Positions 17,521 through 27,146 of a stretch of 64,000 bases of DNA are shown here, piece after piece; positions within the stretch are counted from its first letter, which is position 1, and the number at the start of each line of letters is the position of its first letter. A program made the position numbers and the translations under genes. The notes under the pieces are model-generated. The model was not told the origin of the DNA, did no database searches, and saw only the letters and a list, made by a program, of their open reading frames with translations. This DNA is from Neptunomonas concharum (GTDB lineage: Bacteria > Pseudomonadota > Gammaproteobacteria > Pseudomonadales > Balneatricaceae), in the NCBI RefSeq assembly GCF_008630635.1, contig NZ_CP043869.1, positions 310,001-374,000 on the forward strand. Direction: 5' to 3'.

Positions 17521-17541
17521 CTGATAAAAATTATTTATCAG
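17521..17541. promoter_or_regulatory. Perfect 21-bp palindrome upstream of the D-glutamate/5-oxoproline operon
   Basis: CTGATAAA (17521-17528) and TTTATCAG (17534-17541) are separated by AATTA, in the 203-nt gap between the antiporter start and the DUF1445 start. It is 107 nt upstream of the DUF1445 ATG and 77 nt upstream of the antiporter ATG. The symmetry and position suggest an operator for a dimeric regulator. As a transcript hairpin it would be AT-rich and weak. Confidence 0.5.
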
Positions 17542-17647: not shown

Positions 17648-18436
17648 ATGGACTTAAATATTACACCCTATGATCTGAGACAAATGATCCGCAAGGGCGA
17701 GTTTAGTGGAAATACTTCCGGTTACTCGCAAGGTTTTGTACAGGGTAACTTAGCAATCATGCCGCAAGAGTGGGCGAATGAGTTTTTACAATTTTGCCAG
17801 CTGAATCCAAAGCCGTGTCCTGTGATTGGTATGTCTGCGAACCCCGGTGATTTTTTGTTACCTGATCTGGGTCGGGATGTAGATATTCGAACAGACCTAC
17901 CCCGCTATCGAATCTATGAAGAGGGGGTAATGACGCAGGAGGTCACGGATGTACGTGAGTTCTGGCGTGATGATCTGGTGACATTCCTGCTGGGATGCTC
18001 CTTCTCCTTCGAAGAATCCCTGATTGCTGACGGTTTAGAAGTGCGCAATATAACCGAAGGCGTCAATGTGCCTATGTATCGTACCAATATCCCTTGTCGG
18101 CCAGCGGGGCGTTTCAGTGGTACCACGGTTGTCAGTATGCGACCGATGAAGCCTAAAGATGCGATACGGGCTATTCAGATCTGTACGCGCTTCCCTTCGG
18201 TTCATGGTGCACCACTTCACTTTGGGAACCCAGAAGATATTGGCATCAGTAATATTAACGCGCCTGACTTTGGAGATGCGGTAACTATTAACGATGGTGA
18301 AGTGCCGGTCTTTTGGGCCTGTGGTGTGACACCGCAGGTTGCTATTGAGCAAGCGCGTCCTCCGTTTTGTATCACCCATAGTCCAGGCCACATGTTGGTA
18401 ACTGATATCCCGAACAGCCATTTGGCTATTATGTAA
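17648..18436 (+). CDS. DUF1445/UPF0317 protein (D-glutamate cyclase N-terminal-domain homologue)
   Basis: A 262-residue cytoplasmic protein of the UPF0317 putative hydro-lyase family (B. subtilis YcsI). Recognisable family blocks are an N-terminal [87 protein letters not shown] and the C-terminal FWACGVTPQ ... [17 protein letters not shown]. In mammals this domain is fused to a DUF4392 domain to make mitochondrial D-glutamate cyclase, which interconverts D-glutamate and 5-oxo-D-proline. Here the DUF4392 partner is encoded separately four genes downstream. The ATG at 17648 is preferred, with GGAGG at 17639-17643; an in-frame GTG at 17645 is too close to it. The catalytic role of this half is inference. 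Confidence 0.85.
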
Positions 18437-18455
18437 TGTGCTGCAGGAGAAGAGT

Positions 18456-19199
18456 ATGCGTCTCAAACTAAATTGTGATCTAGGCGAAAGCTTTGGTGCT
18501 TGGAAAATGGGTCTGGATGATGAGGTTATGCCCCATATTGATCAAGCTAATATTGCGTGCGGTTTTCATGCGGGTGATCCGTTGGTCATGCAAAAGACGT
18601 TGGCGCTGGCGAAAACTCATGGTGTAGAAGTGGGTGCGCATCCTGGATACCCTGATTTGGTAGGTTTTGGTCGTCGCTCACTAAAAGCTACCTCGGATGA
18701 GATACGCGCGTTAATGTGCTATCAAATGTCTGCACTGGATGGAATGGCCGCCTGTGAGGGCTTAACTATGAGTTATGTAAAGCCCCATGGAGCACTCTAT
18801 AACGACATGATGGCTGACAGTTCAGTACGTGCTGCGGTTATGGCTGCGGTGGCAAGCTACCACCGGCCTATTGTGCTGGTATTGCAAGGTACGCCGGATG
18901 CTGAACAGCATAGAGCCGAAGCCGAGCAGTATGGTCTGAAGCTGTCTTTCGAAGCCTTTGCTGATCGCTGTTATGACGATGATGGGAAATTGCTTTCACG
19001 AACACGTGAAGGTGCAGTTCATTCCAAAGAGAAGATGCTGGCGCAAGTAAAGCAGCTCAAAGAAACAGGAACCGTGACCAGCATTAGTGGGCATACGCTC
19101 AATCTGTATGCTGACACCCTCTGCGTGCATGGTGACAATATGGCGGGTGTACAAGCGATTCAAACCATTCGCGCTATGATTGATAGTGAGGAATGTTAG
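18456..19199 (+). CDS. pxpA: 5-oxoprolinase subunit A (LamB/YcsF family)
   Basis: PxpA with PxpB and PxpC forms the prokaryotic ATP-dependent 5-oxoprolinase, which opens 5-oxoproline to glutamate. The 247-residue product starts MRLKLNCDLGESFG and contains DQANIACGFHAGDP, the family metal/active-site segment, then GAHPGYPDLVGFGRR, YVKPHGALYN and FADRCYDDDGKLLSR. AGGAGA at 18445-18450 lies 5 nt before the ATG at 18456; a longer in-frame GTG start at 18438 overlaps that site and is rejected. It follows the DUF1445 gene by 19 nt and precedes pxpB by 3 nt. Full length. Confidence 0.94.
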   Translation: MRLKLNCDLGESFGAWKMGLDDEVMPHIDQANIACGFHAGDPLVMQKTLALAKTHGVEVGAHPGYPDLVGFGRRSLKATSDEIRALMCYQMSALDGMAACEGLTMSYVKPHGALYNDMMADSSVRAAVMAAVASYHRPIVLVLQGTPDAEQHRAEAEQYGLKLSFEAFADRCYDDDGKLLSRTREGAVHSKEKMLAQVKQLKETGTVTSISGHTLNLYADTLCVHGDNMAGVQAIQTIRAMIDSEEC

Positions 19200-19202
19200 G
19201 CC

Positions 19203-19880
19203 ATGCTAATAGAAGTTGCAGGTGAGAATGCACTGATCGTCTATTTTGGCGAAACGGCTAATCCGCAAGTATCGGCACGCGTGCAGCAGGCAGTAGATTT
19301 GCTGTCTCAGACAATGGGTGATGCGCTGGTGGATTTGGTGCCTTCCTACGCTTCGTTACTGGTGATCTACAATCCACTCGTGACAGATCATTTTGCCGTT
19401 AAACGGCAGATTAGGGCGCTGCAATATGCAGAAGAAAGTGACCAGCCCCAAACAGGTAATTTAATAGAGCTACCCGTTTATTACGGAACGGATGCAGGCC
19501 CAGATTTGCAGTCACTGGCAGATAATGCGGGACTTACTACTAACGAAGTGATTCAGATCCATAGCGAGATGGAATATCGCGTTTACGCCATTGGCTTTGC
19601 TCCAGGGTTTGCTTACTTAGGTGAAGTTGATGAGCGTATTGCAGCGGCACGTTTAAGTACGCCACGCTTGAAAGTGCCTCGCGGCGCGGTGGCGATTGCT
19701 GACCGGCAAACGGCGGTATATCCAGCAGTATCCCCTGGCGGCTGGAATCTGATTGGCTTGTGCCCGATTCGTATGTTTGACCCTGCTGCTGAGCCGACGA
19801 TGCCCGTACAAGTCGGTGATCGTGTAAAGTTTGCACCGATCTCAAAGCAAGAATTTCTATCCTTGGGAGGTGAGTTATGA
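19203..19880 (+). CDS. pxpB: 5-oxoprolinase subunit B (KipI family)
   Basis: A 225-residue protein matching the KipI/allophanate hydrolase subunit 1 family. The diagnostic block GFAPGFAYLG (about residues 123-132) is present, followed by TPRLKVPRGAVAIADRQTAVYP and SPGGWNLIG. It works with PxpA and PxpC in ATP-dependent hydrolysis of 5-oxoproline. The ATG begins 3 nt after pxpA, and the stop overlaps the pxpC start by 4 nt (ATGA), the usual translational coupling in this operon. In B. subtilis the homologue KipI was first described as an inhibitor of the sporulation kinase KinA, a role with no meaning here. Confidence 0.94.
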   Translation: MLIEVAGENALIVYFGETANPQVSARVQQAVDLLSQTMGDALVDLVPSYASLLVIYNPLVTDHFAVKRQIRALQYAEESDQPQTGNLIELPVYYGTDAGPDLQSLADNAGLTTNEVIQIHSEMEYRVYAIGFAPGFAYLGEVDERIAAARLSTPRLKVPRGAVAIADRQTAVYPAVSPGGWNLIGLCPIRMFDPAAEPTMPVQVGDRVKFAPISKQEFLSLGGEL

Positions 19881-20827
19881 GCCTTGCTGAAACAGGATTT
19901 AAAGTACTCCAGCCAGGTCTTCTCACTCTGATTCAGGATGCTGGTCGATTTGGGTATCATCGCATAGGACTCACCAATGGTGGTCCCTTAGATATGGCCT
20001 CCTTTCGCTGGGCCAATCAATTGTGTGGTAATCCAGAAGGTACTACTGCACTGGAGGTGAGTATTGGTGGTCTGGTCATGGAAGCTCAGCTGGATACCTA
20101 CTTTGCCGTGACCGGTGCTAACCTTCCGTTAAAAGTAAACGGTGTGGAATTAGAAGGATGGCAAACACACGCAATTAAAGCGGGTGATCGTATTGAATTG
20201 GGCTTTACGCAAGCTGGTGCACGGGCTTATTTGGCCGTTGCTGGTGGCTTCTCGATTCCTGTCTCGTTTGCCAGCAGCGCAACCGTGACCCGTGAAGGAA
20301 TCGGAGGTTTAACAGGAGATAAGCTACAACAAGGGGATTTTTTGCCCTGCGCTCCTCATGCAACAAAAGCGATGTATCGCTTGGCAGCAGCTTATCGCCC
20401 CTCTTTTTCACAGCAGGAAACGCTGCGATTGGTATTAGGTTATCAGCATGCAAGTTTTGATAATGTGCAAAAGCGTTTGTTCTTCTCCAGTGAATACCGT
20501 CTGACTGATCGTGCTGATCGTATGGGCTTTCGCTTAGAGGGGCAGGCAGTACGTTCCTCGCTTACGGGTATTTTGTCAGAGGGGATTTGTCATGGCGCTG
20601 TACAGATTCCAGCAGATGGGCAGCCAATCGTACTCTTGAATGATCGACAGACTATCGGTGGCTATCCCAAGATAGGCTCTGTCATCTCCCTTGATACGGC
20701 AAAACTAAGCCAACTATTGCCGGGAAGCTGTATCCACTTTGAAGAAGTATCGATCGAGCAATCTCATAACCTTATCTGTTTGGCAGCACACCGCTTTGCC
20801 AATACCCCTTTAGAACGTATCGCTTAA
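19877..20827 (+). CDS. pxpC: 5-oxoprolinase subunit C (KipA family)
   Basis: A 316-residue protein of the KipA/allophanate hydrolase subunit 2 family. Signatures are LQPGLLTLIQDAGRFGYHRIGLTNGGPLD near the N-terminus, NGGPLD being typical, then LEVSIGGL, ARAYLAVAGGF and the C-terminal GAVQIPADGQPIVLLNDRQTIGGYPKIG. It forms the larger part of the PxpBC complex that acts with PxpA. It overlaps pxpB by ATGA. The DUF4392 gene begins 23 nt after its stop, so all five genes from 17648 to 21708 look like one transcript. Confidence 0.94.
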   Translation: MSLAETGFKVLQPGLLTLIQDAGRFGYHRIGLTNGGPLDMASFRWANQLCGNPEGTTALEVSIGGLVMEAQLDTYFAVTGANLPLKVNGVELEGWQTHAIKAGDRIELGFTQAGARAYLAVAGGFSIPVSFASSATVTREGIGGLTGDKLQQGDFLPCAPHATKAMYRLAAAYRPSFSQQETLRLVLGYQHASFDNVQKRLFFSSEYRLTDRADRMGFRLEGQAVRSSLTGILSEGICHGAVQIPADGQPIVLLNDRQTIGGYPKIGSVISLDTAKLSQLLPGSCIHFEEVSIEQSHNLICLAAHRFANTPLERIA

Positions 20828-20850
20828 CTGTCGATAGTGGAGAAATTAAA

Positions 20851-21708
20851 GTGACGAATGCAAGTATAGCGCGAGATGACACAGCGTTAAGTAAACTTAT
20901 TGAAGACCTGTTAGTCGCTAGAAACTTGCGAGGTATGAAGACTATTCAACCCGCCTTGCAGACAGGTTACTACTTACGTGCTGCGCGTATCTTGAATAAA
21001 TGTCGAGGCCACGTGCTGATAGGCACTGGCTTTCCTGTTGTAGACACCTTTGAAACGGATGGCCCCGTCGGTGCGATTGCGTTATATCGTGCATTAGAGA
21101 CATTAGGTGCAACCCCCGTGTTGGTGTGTGGTCCGCCGGTATCGCAAGCGCTTATGAAGGATTTTCGGGTTCATGAAATCCGAGTGGGAGAGCACCAAGA
21201 GCAGAAGCTGGAAGCATTTGAAGCGCTCTATAAATTCCACCCTGATGCCGTAGTCTCGATTGAGCGCCCAGGGCAAGCCGAGGATGGTGGTTATTACAAT
21301 ATGCGTGGTGAAAGCATCAGTGCGCGGACAGCCTGTTTCGATACGTTTGTAAAACATGCCAAATGTCCGACCATTGGTATTGGTGATGGCGGCAATGAGA
21401 TCGGCATGGGCAATGTAGTCAGTGCCTTAAAAGATCTAGATATTGTTGCATCGGCTACCTGTGTAGATGAGTTACTGATTGCCGACGTCTCTAACTGGGG
21501 AGCCTATGGGATCATGGCATTTTTAAGTGTCTGGAACCAAACGGATCTACTGGGTCAGGTGAAACCCCGTGAAATTCTCGACTATCTATCGGGGTTAGGC
21601 AGTGTAGATGGCGTAACACGCCAAAATGAGTTGACCGAAGATGGTCTGGATCCGAGTGAAGGTGAGTCCGTTTTATTGGCGCTACGTCAGCTGATTAATG
21701 TGGCCTGA
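20851..21708 (+). CDS. DUF4392 protein (D-glutamate cyclase C-terminal-domain homologue)
   Basis: A 285-residue protein resembling the C-terminal domain of animal D-glutamate cyclase. Conserved blocks are LIGTGFPVVDTFETDGPVGAIAL (about residues 56-78), VSIERPGQAEDGGYYNMRGESI (about 136-157) and GIGDGGNEIGMGNV (about 176-189), the last two rich in acidic and glycine residues likely to form the active site. The start is GTG at 20851 with GGAG 8 nt upstream. It is the last gene of the DUF1445-pxpABC-DUF4392 operon and converges on the LysR gene with only 6 nt between stops. The proposed reaction is D-glutamate to 5-oxo-D-proline plus water, by homology and context; whether it acts alone or with the DUF1445 protein is open. 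Confidence 0.85.
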   Translation: MTNASIARDDTALSKLIEDLLVARNLRGMKTIQPALQTGYYLRAARILNKCRGHVLIGTGFPVVDTFETDGPVGAIALYRALETLGATPVLVCGPPVSQALMKDFRVHEIRVGEHQEQKLEAFEALYKFHPDAVVSIERPGQAEDGGYYNMRGESISARTACFDTFVKHAKCPTIGIGDGGNEIGMGNVVSALKDLDIVASATCVDELLIADVSNWGAYGIMAFLSVWNQTDLLGQVKPREILDYLSGLGSVDGVTRQNELTEDGLDPSEGESVLLALRQLINVA

Positions 21709-21714
21709 TAAGTT

Positions 21715-22596
21715 TTAGGGTATTTGCATGATGGCCAGACTACTTTCAGCTAGTTGCTGGGGTAGTATTCGGTCATCATCCTGTCGCCAAGCATAGCAAA
21801 ACGTTAGTTCGGCAGGGGTCTGTTCGGTTTCCATCTTGATCAGTGAGCCCTCTGATAGAGGCTGTTCTAAAAGTGGAATTGGCAACAAAGCGATCCCCAC
21901 TCCTTGCTGAATCAGCTTTAACATATTCGCAACCGAGCTACAGGTGTGAATCGGCGGCGGCTCATCCAATGTATTGAAAAGCTGATGCAAATAATGCCAA
22001 GGTCGTGTGTCTCGGGGGAAGCTGATTATAGGGAAGGTGGCTAAGTCTGCCACGCTCAGTGGCGTTGAGTGGTGGTGAAGATTAGGGCTGCAAACCCAGC
22101 ATTGAGGGTAGCTGCTTAATTGTCCGACACTGATATCAGCTGGCGTTGATTGATCTGCTACCATGAGCGCAAAGTCGATCTGGTGGTTCTGCAATTGGCG
22201 TATCAATATAGGGGTCATATCGCTGGTCAGTTCAAAAGAGATCAGCGGATGTTTAGTTTGCCAGTGTTTCAGTAATTTGGTTAACCAAAGATGCGCTAAA
22301 GTATCGGAAATACCGATACGTAAGCTGCCTTTTTCAGGAATTTCTTGGCTAATTTGTGCTTTCATCTCCTGACTTATGGCGATGAGCTTTTCGGCATAAG
22401 GTAACAGTTGAGTGCCACGAGCAGTGAGTTGGGTGCCGCTCTTATCTCTTAGAAGCAAAGCCACACCTAGCTCGGCCTCTAGTGCAGCAATCCGTGCGGA
22501 GATTGCCGGTTGGCTTGTATGCAGTTGCTGAGCGGCTGCATGGAAGCTGCCAAGGCGGGCTACTTTAATAAAGGTAGAAAGGTTGCGTAATCGCAT
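21715..22596 (-). CDS. LysR-type transcriptional regulator
   Basis: A 293-residue LysR regulator with an N-terminal winged helix-turn-helix (MRLRNLSTFIKVARLGSFHAAAQ through QPAISARIAALEAELG, residues 1-45) and a C-terminal periplasmic-binding-protein-like effector domain (about 90-293). It lies between the D-glutamate cyclase/oxoprolinase operon and the D-amino-acid transaminase gene, convergent with the former and divergent from the latter. This makes it the obvious candidate regulator of both. The effector is unknown; D-glutamate, 5-oxoproline or a related metabolite is a guess from context. Confidence 0.92.
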   Translation of the reverse strand: MRLRNLSTFIKVARLGSFHAAAQQLHTSQPAISARIAALEAELGVALLLRDKSGTQLTARGTQLLPYAEKLIAISQEMKAQISQEIPEKGSLRIGISDTLAHLWLTKLLKHWQTKHPLISFELTSDMTPILIRQLQNHQIDFALMVADQSTPADISVGQLSSYPQCWVCSPNLHHHSTPLSVADLATFPIISFPRDTRPWHYLHQLFNTLDEPPPIHTCSSVANMLKLIQQGVGIALLPIPLLEQPLSEGSLIKMETEQTPAELTFCYAWRQDDDRILPQQLAESSLAIMQIP

Positions 22597-22660
22597 GATG
22601 GCACCGTGCTAAATAAGCAAAATACTATAACGTGGCTTTGTGTTTGCATTATAGGTTTTT

Positions 22661-22698
22661 TTGTAATGGTTTTTTTTGCTGTTTTATTGTAAAGGTTT
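22661..22698. repeat. Direct repeat TTGTAAWGGTTT in the lysR/dat intergenic region
   Basis: TTGTAATGGTTT (22661-22672) and TTGTAAAGGTTT (22687-22698) differ by one base and are spaced 26 bp start to start. They sit in a T-rich, AT-rich stretch upstream of dat, and related TTTGTAATA recurs in the dyad at 22756-22783. They may be regulator half-sites. Confidence 0.35.
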
Positions 22699-22755
22699 GA
22701 TATTATTTTATGCTAAATGAAAAATATTGGGTGTTTTTTGTTTAATTTTTATACG

Positions 22756-22783
22756 TATTGCAAATAATTGCCTATTTGTAATA
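22756..22783. promoter_or_regulatory. Dyad upstream of the D-amino-acid transaminase gene
   Basis: TATTGCAAATA (22756-22766) and TATTTGTAATA (22773-22783) match as inverted repeats at 10 of 11 positions across a 6-nt ATTGCC centre, 55 nt before the dat ATG. Position and symmetry fit a binding site for the divergently transcribed LysR protein. Confidence 0.45.
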
Positions 22784-22838
22784 TAAAGTCGCTATTGAAT
22801 CTGACTGTTAGTCAAGTAGCTTAAGGGGCAGTTAACAA

Positions 22839-23705
22839 ATGAGTATTGCATATTTAAATGGTGAATACCTCCCACTCGAAGAAGCACGTATCTCTCCTTT
22901 AGATCGTGGTTTTCTTTTTGGTGACGGTATCTATGAAGTGATCCCTTACTACGCAGGTAAGCCAGTTGGTTTGGTAGCTCATATCGAACGTATGATTGAT
23001 GGCTTGGCCGCTGTTGAAATCCAGTCAAAAACTACGCTGGAACAATGGTCTGCTCTTTTAAATGATCTGATTAGCCGTAACGGCGGCGCAGAAAAGAACT
23101 TGGGCGTTTATGTTCATGTCTCTCGCGGTGCAGATGTTAAGCGTTTTCATGCATACCCGGAAAACGTAGAGCCAACGGTTTTCTGTTTTACTTTTGACAT
23201 CAAAGACCCTGAGCCGGTAGATCGCACAGCTGTGCACGCTTATACCGTGACTACTGCGCAAGATCTGCGCTGGCGCCGTTGCCATATCAAATCAACGGCA
23301 CTGTTGGGTAATGTCATGCACTTTCAGCAAGGCTATGCATCGGGTAACAGCGAATGTTTGCTGTACAACGACAAAAACGAACTGACTGAAGGTAGTTCGG
23401 TCAATGCTTACATTGTTAAAGATGGTGTCGTTATTACTCCGATCCAAGATAACCAGATTTTGCCAGGCATTACCCGTCGAATCATCATTGATAGCCTAAA
23501 AGAGGAAGGCTCTATTAAGGTTGAAGAGCGTACGGTGACCATGGATGAAGTCTATGCCGCTGACGAAGTATGGATCAGCTCCTCATCTAAAGAGATAGCC
23601 CCTGTTACACAGATAGACGGTAAGCCTGTAGGTGATGGCACCGTAGGTGAAGTTTGGGAAAAAGCTTTCCGTATCTATACCGATGCAAAGTTTACACACC
23701 GCTAA
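22839..23705 (+). CDS. dat: D-amino-acid transaminase (class IV PLP enzyme)
   Basis: A 288-residue fold-type IV aminotransferase. The start (YLNGEYLPLEEARISPLDRGFLFGDGIYEV), the lysine expected to bind PLP (K151 in HIKSTALLGNV), NELTEGSSVNAYIV and LPGITRRIII are the pattern of D-alanine/D-amino-acid transaminases rather than branched-chain enzymes. The known reaction is D-alanine plus 2-oxoglutarate to pyruvate plus D-glutamate. AAGGGG lies about 10 nt before the ATG. It has its own upstream dyad and its own terminator, so it is a single-gene transcript. Its position next to D-glutamate cyclase genes suggests that it makes or consumes D-glutamate for that pathway. Confidence 0.88.
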   Translation: MSIAYLNGEYLPLEEARISPLDRGFLFGDGIYEVIPYYAGKPVGLVAHIERMIDGLAAVEIQSKTTLEQWSALLNDLISRNGGAEKNLGVYVHVSRGADVKRFHAYPENVEPTVFCFTFDIKDPEPVDRTAVHAYTVTTAQDLRWRRCHIKSTALLGNVMHFQQGYASGNSECLLYNDKNELTEGSSVNAYIVKDGVVITPIQDNQILPGITRRIIIDSLKEEGSIKVEERTVTMDEVYAADEVWISSSSKEIAPVTQIDGKPVGDGTVGEVWEKAFRIYTDAKFTHR

Positions 23706-23741
23706 TTGACACTCTGCTCTTCATTGACAAAAGACGTTTTG

Positions 23742-23768
23742 CCCCGGTTTTCCGGGGTTTTTTTTGTC
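23742..23768 (+). terminator. Rho-independent terminator after dat
   Basis: CCCCGG and CCGGGG around a TTTT loop, followed by eight Ts, form a strong intrinsic terminator about 40 nt after the dat stop. Confidence 0.93.
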
Positions 23769-23825: not shown

Positions 23826-23978
23826 TTACCTACTATGTTTCAATCTATATTCGCCCAAAAATTCGAATAGGTAGGTTTATGATCAAGAATCTGAATAACT
23901 CGTAAGAGGATGACTAAAGTAGTAGTCTCTAGCCAGCTTTGCATCATAAATCTCACCCTGGGTACAGGTAAGTTACCT
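23826..23978. promoter_or_regulatory. TTACCT/AGGTAA repeats upstream of the beta-helix gene
   Basis: The 13-nt palindrome AGGTAAGTTACCT (23966-23978) lies 3 nt before the AAGGAG ribosome-binding site of the next gene. A further divergent pair, TTACCTA near 23826 and TAGGTAGG near 23869, lies upstream. The one next to the ribosome-binding site could be an operator or a small translational hairpin. No RNA family is recognised. Confidence 0.35.
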
Positions 23979-23993
23979 CTGAAGGAGTGGAAC

Positions 23994-26900
23994 ATGAAAA
24001 GAATAAGAATAGATAGTGTTAGAAAAGTAGTGATTAGCCTGCTTGCAACATGCAGTTTAGCTCTAGTATCAGAGGCTCAAGCTCTTGAGTTTGTAAACAT
24101 TGCTAACAGCAATGTCGATGTTAGAGAGGCGCAGATAAATGTGCAAACTGACGAGCCAAGCGAAGTCTATGTTAAGTATGGGTTGAACTCCGCCAATTTT
24201 GTTAACTCTCAAGTGTCTGGTAGTAAAAGAAATCATGCTATCTCTCTAAATAACTTAAAGTTGGGGCACATTTATCACTATCGTGTTGTCGCAAAGTCGA
24301 GTATTGGCGAAGAGTTTATTAGTGATGGGCAGTTGTTACGACTTAAAAAGACGAGTGATGCCTTTCCTGTCGCTGTTATTAATAAAATAGATAAGCAAAA
24401 CATTACCTCTTCTAGTGCAACTATTAACGTTGAGCTTGATAGAGCGGCAACTGCTACGTTAAATTTTGGGCGAGGGGCCTATAATGGGGGGACTTTGGTT
24501 TCCTCTGTTGCTGTTAATCACCAATTTGAGTTAAGTGGGTTGGATGAAGGGGAAATCTATCATTTTGAAATCGATACAGAAACGCCTGACGGCTTTTTCG
24601 CTGATGGATCAGATCAGCTACTTCGTCTCAAAGAGGCATCGGGTCCAGATATTACCCACCTGTTTGTGAGCGAACGAGGTACCACATCTTCTACCATCAC
24701 CTGGAATACCAGCCGCCATGCAACCGGACGTGTTTTATACCGTAAGGTTGGTGAGCCAGACTACCAAAAAATAGAAAGCTTTGAGTTTCTGAAAGAGCAT
24801 AGCGTTACACTACCCAATTTAGCAGACTACTCTGAATATGAATTCTTTGTTGAATCAGCTGATGCTAATGGTTTGACCTCCGCATCCAAATCATTATTTT
24901 TCTACACACTGGATAGCTCACCTGAACAGCCATCCATTGCGAAAATAGAGGTCAGCTACCTGAATTACTTAAAAAACGAAGGTTTTGCCAAGGTAGTTAC
25001 TGCAGAGGACACGCGTGTCTGGATTACTTTTGGTCCAAGCTTCAGGCCTAATACCTCTCTTGTATCAGATTTTAAGAAAGAGCATGGTATTCGATTACCA
25101 TCGTTGATTCCTGGTTTGTTTTATCGACTAGAAGTTCACGTCGAAGATGCAGACGGAAATCTCCATAAGCAAATTCAATTTTTTGATCCTGAAAAACTTG
25201 CGATAATTACAGAGAGTGAGATAACAACCGAGCCTGAGTACCTTGTAAATAGTTTTCTTACCCCAAGAACAACCAAGGTTTGTAATTATAATGTGAGTGA
25301 TATCGTTGCATACAGTTATATTAAATTAGACTGTTTGCTTGATTTAAATAATCAGCATGTATTCCTTAATGAAGGTGTTTCTTTACTTGCGGCTGGTGGC
25401 GACGTTATTAACGGCACTTTGCATATGCCTGATGGTGAAATCGATCCTCGATTACTGAACTCGTCTGTTACCGTTAGTGGTGTGGGGGTTAGTCCTACAT
25501 CGGACAATTATCTGTTAGATAAAAAACGCTGGCCTCTTACTGAGGGTGTTGTTGAAGATTCTGTTGCAAAAATAAATAGACAAATTCTTCAGCACGCTTT
25601 CAATCAAATGGCCGCTATCCAGATAGCTACATTTACATTGCCTAGCTTTGATGTTTATTTCTTAGTAGGGCAATACGATTCGCGTATTGATGGTAGTAAA
25701 AGTGGAATGCTATTACCTTCGAACACTAATTTAGTAATGCACGCAGATACTACATTGCGTGTACAACCAAATGGATACGAAAAGTACAGTCTGCTTGGTA
25801 CCTTCAATGCTAGTAATGTTAAGGTAAAAGGTGGGGTGCTAATTGGTGAGCGAGATCAGCATAACTACGAAGACCCGCTTTCAGATAAGAATAAACAGTG
25901 GGCTGGCACGCTAATGCGGATCCAAGGTTCGACGAATGTTTTGATTGATGGCGTTAGCTTTATTGATGCGATGGGTGATGGCCTATCAATCAGCTCTCTT
26001 CGAGGGTATGGTCGACCTGACCACATTGAAACGAAAGATGTTACGGTCATTAATAGTACTTTTGACAATAACCGTCGACTTGGTATGGCTATCACCAGTG
26101 GTTCCGATATCTTAGTGGATAGCAATACATTCTTAAACTCAGGCCAACCTACTGAATACTCTACTTTTGCCTCTCCCGGTTGGGCGCTGGATGTTGAGGG
26201 GGCTCGCTTACGCAATAACGAGGGCGAGCTTTACTATATTGAACGTCCGCATAACATTGTTATCAGTAACAATGTCGAGAAAAATAGCTACGAGGGTGCT
26301 TTCATTGCCGCTATAGGTGATCATATCGACATCATCAAAAATACGACTGAAAGTCGTTTAGGTATAGGACAGTCCTCTTTTGTAACTATTACTGATAATA
26401 AAGTGACGTACAACGACAGCTCTCATACCGCAAAATTTGCCATACTCAATGGTCACGATGGGGAAACAACTTTTTACCCAATCACTGATGGTGTGCCACT
26501 GGAAAATAATATTATTGCTAATAATGAGCTCCGAAATGCAGGTATCTTTATCTCGGGAAGTAATACTGATATCTATGATAACACTATAATAAATGCTCCA
26601 TTGGCCTTCTCTATATATAGAGCAAAAGATACAAATATCTTTAATAATAAAGCAGTGGTTGATAACGATGCTCCTAGCACTGATAGTGATGGTAGAGTAA
26701 AAAGCTATAATGGTATGCGAGCAAGATTCTCAGTAAATAATGTTAGCTTTAATGGTAATAAAGTACATGTAAGGGGTAACCCGCTATGGGTTCAGGGAAT
26801 AAATACCGAACCAAATCAAAGTGCTTATATGATGGAAGTTAAAGATAATGTCTTCACAACATCTACTGATAGTAAAGTTTCAGTTTTTAGCAAGGCGAAA

Positions 26901-27146
26901 AATGTAACACTTCAAGGAAATGAAATTAATGGATTGCAGATATCTACAGAATCTCACGATCTATCAATTTTGGATAATGTTATTAATCAGACCTTGTCGC
27001 ATGGTATTCATGTTAATACAGGAAGTAACAATATTGATATACAAGGCAATACAATTGGTTTCAGTGGAAGCCGGTCTGTTTGCATTAAAGTGTCTACCGA
27101 TAGTGCAGTTAATGAAAAAGATAATGTGTGTCATGAAATAGAATAA
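23994..27146 (+). CDS. Large secreted protein: four Fn3-like modules plus right-handed parallel beta-helix
   Basis: I do not recognise a characterised family. The product from the ATG at 23994 (AAGGAG 6 nt upstream) is 1050 residues. It has a signal peptide (basic start, hydrophobic core, cleavage likely after AQA at residue 30). Four fibronectin-III-like modules follow (about 35-420), recognisable by repeated L-x-L-x-x-G-x-x-Y/F-x-x-x-V blocks such as NLKLGHIYHYRVVAKS and GLDEGEIYHFEIDTE. After a linker, about residues 570-1050 show NosD/PbH1-type turns with N-x-F/N-x-I asparagine ladders (SNNVEKNSYEG, YDNTIINAP, QGNTIGFSG). The C-terminus has a cysteine pair (SVCIKV and DNVCHE). Such proteins often bind or cleave polysaccharides, but no catalytic motif is evident. 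The 3' third is clearly richer in A+T than its neighbours, hinting at transfer or surface diversification. Confidence 0.75.
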   Translation: MKRIRIDSVRKVVISLLATCSLALVSEAQALEFVNIANSNVDVREAQINVQTDEPSEVYVKYGLNSANFVNSQVSGSKRNHAISLNNLKLGHIYHYRVVAKSSIGEEFISDGQLLRLKKTSDAFPVAVINKIDKQNITSSSATINVELDRAATATLNFGRGAYNGGTLVSSVAVNHQFELSGLDEGEIYHFEIDTETPDGFFADGSDQLLRLKEASGPDITHLFVSERGTTSSTITWNTSRHATGRVLYRKVGEPDYQKIESFEFLKEHSVTLPNLADYSEYEFFVESADANGLTSASKSLFFYTLDSSPEQPSIAKIEVSYLNYLKNEGFAKVVTAEDTRVWITFGPSFRPNTSLVSDFKKEHGIRLPSLIPGLFYRLEVHVEDADGNLHKQIQFFDPEKLAIITESEITTEPEYLVNSFLTPRTTKVCNYNVSDIVAYSYIKLDCLLDLNNQHVFLNEGVSLLAAGGDVINGTLHMPDGEIDPRLLNSSVTVSGVGVSPTSDNYLLDKKRWPLTEGVVEDSVAKINRQILQHAFNQMAAIQIATFTLPSFDVYFLVGQYDSRIDGSKSGMLLPSNTNLVMHADTTLRVQPNGYEKYSLLGTFNASNVKVKGGVLIGERDQHNYEDPLSDKNKQWAGTLMRIQGSTNVLIDGVSFIDAMGDGLSISSLRGYGRPDHIETKDVTVINSTFDNNRRLGMAITSGSDILVDSNTFLNSGQPTEYSTFASPGWALDVEGARLRNNEGELYYIERPHNIVISNNVEKNSYEGAFIAAIGDHIDIIKNTTESRLGIGQSSFVTITDNKVTYNDSSHTAKFAILNGHDGETTFYPITDGVPLENNIIANNELRNAGIFISGSNTDIYDNTIINAPLAFSIYRAKDTNIFNNKAVVDNDAPSTDSDGRVKSYNGMRARFSVNNVSFNGNKVHVRGNPLWVQGINTEPNQSAYMMEVKDNVFTTSTDSKVSVFSKAKNVTLQGNEINGLQISTESHDLSILDNVINQTLSHGIHVNTGSNNIDIQGNTIGFSGSRSVCIKVSTDSAVNEKDNVCHEIE

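Follow-up and report, generated by a model that had tools for sequence, protein, structure and literature searches.

A conserved DUF1445-pxpABC-DUF4392 gene set with a D-amino-acid transaminase gene in Neptunomonas concharum: a candidate D-glutamate to L-glutamate route through 5-oxoproline

The closest described relative of the system reported here is the animal D-glutamate cyclase DGLUCY (9030617O03Rik, C14orf159), in which the domains DUF1445 and DUF4392 form one protein that converts D-glutamate to 5-oxo-D-proline and, in the available text of the study, has no glutamate racemase activity (PMC5339696). This animal fusion had already been pointed out with the structure of TON_0340, an archaeal DUF4392 protein whose dinuclear Mn2+ site is built from six acids and whose physiological substrate is given as not known in the portion at hand (PMC5132392). 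We analyzed a stretch of 64,000 nucleotides (hereafter the window, positions 310001-374000) from the genome of Neptunomonas concharum, a single contig of 3.56 Mb, in which the same two domains are encoded by two genes. Here and in relatives these genes mostly have the 5-oxoprolinase genes pxpABC between them and a D-amino-acid transaminase gene (dat2 in this family) adjoining, an arrangement that, unlike DGLUCY, is known from the genes alone.

Three further systems invite comparison. In Bacillus subtilis, ycsI is presumably the DUF1445 gene, and the gene order that we give for its operon is likewise assumed. That operon (ycsF, ycsG, ycsI, kipI, kipA) holds pxpABC and ycsI together, as here (PMC10448178). 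It differs in holding a Mn2+ importer gene, ycsG, and in the lack of a DUF4392 match in that species; among 14 control genomes we found a DUF1445 match in B. subtilis and DUF4392 in none. The glutamate racemase MurI also interconverts L- and D-glutamate, as a single reversible cofactor-free enzyme, whereas the two directions would be separate here, one of them driven by ATP. The DgcN-DgcA enzymes of marine bacteria, which differ from those encoded here, invert an N-acetyl form, whereas in the present route the acyl group on the nitrogen would come from within the molecule, as the lactam. Their route from D- to L-glutamate is likewise multi-step and energetically costly (PMC10845958, PMC12363236). 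The available portion of a paper on Corynebacterium pxpTABC makes no mention of 5-oxo-D-proline, D-glutamate, ycsI, stereochemistry or a hydro-lyase (PMC13274462).

A candidate D-glutamate hub around 5-oxoprolinase

The preliminary description of this locus had proposed a tight five-gene operon followed by LysR and dat genes, with the halves of a D-glutamate cyclase split around pxpABC, and Pfam matches bear out both points. All seven genes were confirmed at their places, in the order DUF1445-pxpA-pxpB-pxpC-DUF4392 and then LysR and dat2 (Table 1), and the two halves score far above their cut-offs (PF07286, 226.6 bits against 25; PF14336, 236.9 bits against 27.9). From DUF1445 to DUF4392 the intergenic gaps are 19, 3, -4, and 23 bases, given a pxpA start at 18456, a spacing that fits one transcription unit, and the genes for PxpA, PxpB and PxpC are adjacent within this operon, as in PxpABC. 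The LysR gene is convergent to DUF4392 and divergent from dat2, so that in the window genome dat2 is a neighbor of the operon and lies outside it.

On balance, and with modest confidence, we favor the view that the locus is a D-glutamate hub, in which Dat2 makes D-glutamate while DUF4392, DUF1445 and PxpABC return L-glutamate by way of 5-oxoproline. Dat2 would transfer the amino group of D-alanine or another D-amino acid to 2-oxoglutarate, and alanine racemase (Alr), where it is part of the cluster, would supply or drain D-alanine. The DUF4392/DUF1445 pair would close the D-glutamate that peptidoglycan does not take up to 5-oxoproline; the cyclase itself is most likely DUF4392, the metal enzyme. 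During the lactam stage one step would invert the alpha carbon, for which DUF1445 appears the better candidate, and PxpABC would then open 5-oxo-L-proline to L-glutamate at the expense of ATP. The net result would be a one-way, ATP-driven route from D- to L-glutamate, which together with MurI would make a futile, ATP-burning cycle; this would explain the scarcity of MurI beside the operon, with Dat then supplying D-glutamate. The cyclase activity is that of the animal fusion, and it is carried over from the literature by analogy, as are the PxpABC and Dat chemistries; what we infer is how DUF1445 and DUF4392 share the work, that an inversion takes place, which way the flux runs, and the futile-cycle argument. 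The inversion is a logical argument: if PxpABC reopened the D form, ATP would be spent to regain D-glutamate, so a useful pathway needs an inversion in the lactam.

DUF4392 carries all six metal ligands of TON_0340 (E68, D70, E138, D179, E183, D253; match 1e-30), and these acids are invariant in the 14 sequences aligned. No fused DUF1445-DUF4392 protein was found in the family and class genomes, where the frames matching PF14336 are 275-346 aa long and too short for it. One table row on gut homologues of GLUCM_HUMAN lists six split and no full-length ones (PMC12547972). The predicted model of DUF1445 (predicted local distance difference test score, 90) matches the structures 2pif and 3db9; beyond these, only MJ0159, which is nitrogen-repressor-like, passes E 0.001 among the best 50 of 371 matches (E 2.5e-6, template modeling score 0.39-0.45), with a poor superposition (root-mean-square deviation 9.7). 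This likeness perhaps points to a ligand such as a small dicarboxylate or an amino acid. C118 and C226 of DUF1445, and also C51 and C58, are invariant in all 67 aligned sequences, from both operon types described in this work. Two invariant cysteines in opposite motifs are the pattern of cofactor-free racemases. The fold search gave no support to DUF1445 as a MurI-like two-cysteine racemase, so the cysteines stand as a lead only.

The main reason for assigning DUF1445 to 5-oxoproline and DUF4392 to D-glutamate is a second operon type, in which DUF1445 stays with pxpABC where DUF4392 is absent. In 13 loci of the family (L084-L096), all from genomes without DUF4392, we found the order LysR-DUF1445-DctP-DctQ-DctM-pxpABC, complete or partial. 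This operon has DUF1445 (54-59% identical to that of the window), pxpABC (subunits 42-56% identical) and LysR in common with the window; it adds the transporter genes DctP-DctQ-DctM of the tripartite ATP-independent periplasmic (TRAP) type and has neither DUF4392 nor dat2. It follows that the pairing of the two cyclase halves is not obligatory. For Bordetella pertussis, binding of pyroglutamate by two DctP proteins is on record (PMC12344293), and the L084-L096 operon is a candidate system for pyroglutamate uptake and opening. In G022 and G007 (loci L098 and L099), DUF1445-pxpABC is present in a second set whose identity to that of the window is 64-77%; TRAP-type genes lie near it, and DUF4392 does not occur within the fetched stretch of either.

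Co-occurrence with the transaminase and with MurI

The family set comprises 99 genomes. DUF4392 was found in 56 of them, DUF1445 in 67, PF02626 in 92, and a transaminase like that of the window (E <=1e-30) in 83. By identity these transaminases fall into two tiers, dat2 at 57-100% (including a fragment in G093) and dat1 at 37-47%; in G000, dat1 lies beside rodA-, mltB-, and rlpA-type genes. Both dat2 and DUF4392 were present in 55 genomes and neither in 41, leaving three with one alone: DUF4392 in G014, and dat2 in G049 and G093 (71% and 87% complete). The two genes are kept together even when unlinked, on different contigs in G008 and G023, and about 10 kb and 21 kb apart in G095 and G085. 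In six genera (g1, g5, g7, g12, g13, g16) some members have both genes and others neither. The linkage of dat2 to DUF4392 is not chance. At the level of the class DUF4392 is rare (three of 369 genomes, our own included).

The preliminary description had named a lack of linkage between dat and the operon in related genomes among the findings that would count against it; dat2 co-occurs with DUF4392 in 55 of the 56 DUF4392-positive family genomes, and linkage was also seen in a set of 80 named loci. This set holds the nearest 80 of at least 552 relatives with DUF4392, so it favors close relatives and shares members with the family set; by their titles the members are Gammaproteobacteria, a few only "Proteobacteria" (Oceanospirillaceae/Nitrincolaceae, Halieaceae, marine gamma proteobacterium HTCC2207, a SAR92 bin, Colwellia, Rheinheimera, Alkalimonas, Thiothrix and others). 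A tblastn search of the fetched flanks found pxpC at 74 loci, dat at 70 (one of them, L207, a 36% copy on the opposite strand), pxpA and pxpB at 69 each, DUF1445 at 66, lysR at 29, alr at 27, and murI at none. Contig ends account for nine of the 11 misses of pxpA/B, nine of the 14 of DUF1445 and two of the 10 of dat. A frequent order is DUF1445-pxpABC-DUF4392-dat-alr, and dat is the immediately next called gene after DUF4392 at 42 of the 69 loci with both on the same strand. Median gaps are -1 (pxpC-DUF4392), 47 (DUF4392-dat), and -1 (dat-alr, 26 loci), values that lean short because they were taken from the first possible start codon. In Reinekea marinisedimentorum (L206; DUF1445-DUF4392-dat) and Neptunicella marina (L219; DUF1445-DUF4392) the two halves are immediate neighbors and pxpABC is lacking, the arrangement that is fused in animals.

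Within the family, 80 loci (L024-L103, including control regions without DUF4392) contain an alanine racemase gene in 17 cases (TIGR00492, 356 bits). In eight loci of g2, a genus of small genomes, the cluster, dat2 and alr included, sits as a whole inside the rodA/mltB/rlpA-type peptidoglycan region (L030, L064, L070, L072, L073, L075-L077), and dat1 is missing from the place it occupies in G000. In the g15 loci L054, L063, and L065-L068, DUF4392 is separated from LysR-dat by the genes of a pyridoxal phosphate-dependent enzyme of the PALP family and of an Lrp/AsnC regulator; the former is a possible further D-amino acid enzyme.

MurI, called as TIGR00067 over its cut-off, was found in 18 of the 56 DUF4392-positive and 38 of the 43 DUF4392-negative family genomes. 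The contrast persists after stratification by genus with G000 left out (Cochran-Mantel-Haenszel p 0.0098; one-sided within-genus permutation p 0.0045), and only this within-family, within-genus comparison was kept as evidence. Of the 43 family genomes in which no MurI scored over cut-off, 42 have a dat, the exception being G094 (84% complete); MurI is present in 15 of the 16 without a dat. In 10 of these 43 genomes, dat2 is the only dat (nine from g2 and one from g10, and thus not independent; completeness 89-100%). This backs the earlier suggestion that Dat is a source of D-glutamate: in these ten genomes Dat2 very likely makes it. An alternative supply, MurD2/MurL, is listed for Xanthomonas relatives, some alphaproteobacteria and actinobacteria, and the part of that source at hand does not name the present family (PMC8788868).

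A single absence of murI is weak evidence, since this gene is often a neighbor of the rRNA operon, a place where contigs tend to end. G012, which is DUF4392-negative, shows the order der-murI. In the single-contig genomes G085 and G095 the 16S start word lies about 660-680 bases past der, murI is absent from that interval, and no MurI scores over cut-off elsewhere; in G064 and G015, also single contigs, der likewise runs to the 16S gene, and a MurI match lies elsewhere (that of G064 only 30% identical to that of G012). Among the fetched draft ends, 22 contigs stop 128-636 bases past der, too short for murI; of these genomes G053 is DUF4392-negative, and likewise G049, which is incomplete and has dat2. 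In G026, G073, G009 and the g2 genomes, tblastn found no MurI past der despite longer sequence.

Gene coordinates, protein details and upstream palindrome

The features of the locus are collected in Table 1. DUF1445 starts at an ATG preceded by GGAGG, and pxpA most likely at the ATG at 18456, with AGGAG ahead of it, in preference to a GTG at 18438.

Table 1. Features of the DUF1445-pxpABC-DUF4392 locus and its surroundings, in window positions.
Feature	Position	Strand	Evidence
Perfect 21-bp inverted repeat CTGATA-N9-TATCAG, candidate LysR-type operator	17521..17541	+	106 bases ahead of DUF1445 start
DUF1445 (PF07286 D-Glu_cyclase; NCBIfam "putative hydro-lyase")	17648..18436	+	Pfam 1.3e-67; PDB 3db9 and 2pif matches; related to N-terminal half of animal D-glutamate cyclase
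pxpA, 5-oxoprolinase subunit A	18456..19199	+	PF03746 1.4e-90; NF003816 345.7 bits, cut-off 213
pxpB, 5-oxoprolinase subunit B	19203..19880	+	PF02682 1.1e-70; TIGR00370 175.5 bits, cut-off 145.6
pxpC, 5-oxoprolinase subunit C	19877..20827	+	PF02626 5.4e-83; TIGR00724 265.8, cut-off 230.2
DUF4392 (PF14336 GLUCM-like_C), metal-site domain	20851..21708	+	Pfam 4.2e-70; related to C-terminal half of animal D-glutamate cyclase
LysR-type regulator	21715..22596	-	Pfam; often beside dat2 in the family; 29/80 named loci
dat2, class IV D-amino-acid transaminase	22839..23705	+	PF01063 1.6e-44; RxH trap R102, H104
Intrinsic terminator-like stem-loop and T run, 3' of dat2	23741..23758	+	Terminator scan (fewer sites in the window than in shuffles overall, 3 vs 6.6)

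PxpC matches its domain model and falls below the strict equivalog NF045499 (229.4 of 500). A PxpC of a TRAP-type operon does so too (233.5), which indicates that this model is narrow and does not separate the operon types, and we dropped the idea that the low score signals a new substrate. Dat2 scores under the NCBIfam cut-offs for D-amino-acid transaminase (TIGR01121, 223.1 of 277.5; NF005209, 247 of 320), and its nearest PDB relatives are D-amino acid aminotransferases (DAATs). Aligned to 1daa, it keeps the canonical F26, Y31, V33, and the RxH pair R102/H104. Every position of the canonical carboxylate trap (Y31, RxH, F26, [VA]33 and [KRPT]35), as that motif is defined in PMC10003956, is present, while the xYxQ motif at 88 reads VYVH.

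The palindrome upstream of DUF1445 is the sole exact match in the window and one of two in the genome; allowing up to two mismatches, the window holds seven matches against 2.4 expected. Among the upstream regions of DUF1445, 40 of 134 (a partly redundant set) score 11 or 12 of 12 for it, and about one in 2680 mononucleotide shuffles reaches 11. The repeat contains T-N11-A, the pattern of LysR-type operators. Some TRAP-type operons (L088, L092) have weaker, TTGATA-type versions. A search of the region ahead of dat2 for a LysR operator, covering the window and six of its congeners, found no conserved 12-base word there, and the palindrome occurs only upstream of DUF1445. Directly after dat2 (23910-27146) lies the gene of a long protein of 1078 aa that, by eye, looks exported and repetitive.

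Alternative explanations and significance

Several observations weigh against the hub. For a DUF4392 protein on its own, the available text on TON_0340 gives a weak phosphatase as the sole activity in vitro (PMC5132392). The product of the animal enzyme is 5-oxo-D-proline, so that the DUF1445 of the fusion works without visible inversion (PMC5339696), and no racemase fold (MurI, DapF, proline racemase) was found among the five matches of the DUF1445 model with E <=0.001, within the best 50 of 371. Despite sufficient flanking sequence, dat is missing at eight named loci (L147, L180, L191, L201, L218, L219, L220, L225), and DUF1445 at five with upstream sequence (L199, L215, L221, L223, L224). 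The absence of MurI is not strict either, as all g16, four of five g8 and five of seven g12 genomes have it, mostly alongside the operon. In the window genome itself der is followed by the start of a murI gene, seen for its first 49 codons. Outside the family, MurI occurs in 10 of 50 DUF4392-positive genomes (representing 50 of the 80 loci) against 115 of 369 in the class, a comparison unmatched for kinship that shows nothing. Dat2 as a universal substitute for MurI was therefore rejected, given the 18 DUF4392-positive family genomes with MurI and the class rate itself. A fuller version of the hub, which we put forward only tentatively, would have DUF4392 close D-glutamate to 5-oxo-D-proline, DUF1445 act as a 5-oxoproline epimerase and PxpABC open the L form; together with Dat (and Alr), this route would stand in for MurI in one lineage of marine Gammaproteobacteria, D-glutamate being made and unmade by separate arms and ATP setting the direction.

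It is rather unlikely, although it deserves consideration, that the cluster serves to feed on marine or peptidoglycan D-amino acids, with Dat collecting their amino groups as D-glutamate and the cyclase-oxoprolinase leg returning L-glutamate. Dat is broad in specificity, and the alr adjoining the cluster at 27 of the 80 named loci could act like a catabolic DadX. D-amino acids from peptidoglycan are, moreover, part of marine organic matter (PMC10845958). Against this, no transporter was recognized as recurring with the DUF4392 operon, where some recurring neighbors are unassigned, whereas the operon type without DUF4392 has its TRAP transporter; and scavenging leaves the MurI contrast unexplained. 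The preliminary description had assigned the locus to such scavenging, moving D-amino acids through D-glutamate to glutamate. We keep this chemistry and recast its purpose: as the operon in this family goes with the absence of MurI, and alr lies beside it at those 27 loci, it looks as much like a means for the supply and disposal of the cell's own D-glutamate.

PxpABC is a known damage-control enzyme, and it could clear spontaneous 5-oxo-L-proline together with DUF1445; DUF4392 would then be some repair enzyme, such as a phosphatase of small molecules, and dat just a neighbor in the genome. The weak activity of TON_0340 (PMC5132392) and the occurrence of DUF1445 in B. subtilis, without any DUF4392 among the control genomes, agree with this. 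We nevertheless consider it improbable, in view of the D-glutamate cyclase activity of the animal DUF1445-DUF4392 protein (PMC5339696). Also against it is the joint presence or absence of dat2 and DUF4392 in all but three of the 99 family genomes, together even when unlinked. Reverse flow, in which MurI-less cells make D-glutamate by inverting 5-oxo-L-proline to 5-oxo-D-proline and opening the latter with DUF4392 or PxpABC, Dat then turning D-glutamate into D-alanine, goes with the scarcity of MurI, and the ATP used by PxpABC could drive the ring opening, but it is highly improbable, as cyclisation is the favored direction and Dat, which can make D-glutamate by itself, is present in all but one of the 43 family genomes that lack a MurI over cut-off.

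In the literature searched, with subscription papers largely outside it, we found no description of the operon with dat and alr, of the TRAP operon type or of the link to the absence of MurI. The parts are known; within that literature, a route for the interconversion of D- and L-glutamate appears to be assembled here from known enzyme families in an undescribed way. The operon gives the bacterial halves of D-glutamate cyclase a pathway, and it offers a function for DUF1445, a "putative hydro-lyase" that is encoded in pxpABC operons and forms part of a human mitochondrial enzyme. D-glutamate is an essential cell-wall amino acid, the supply and clearance of which in bacteria without MurI have mostly been assumed. 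Many bacteria leave its interconversion with L-glutamate to a single racemase; the conserved gene set described here probably forms D-glutamate by transamination and converts it to L-glutamate by way of a ring intermediate.

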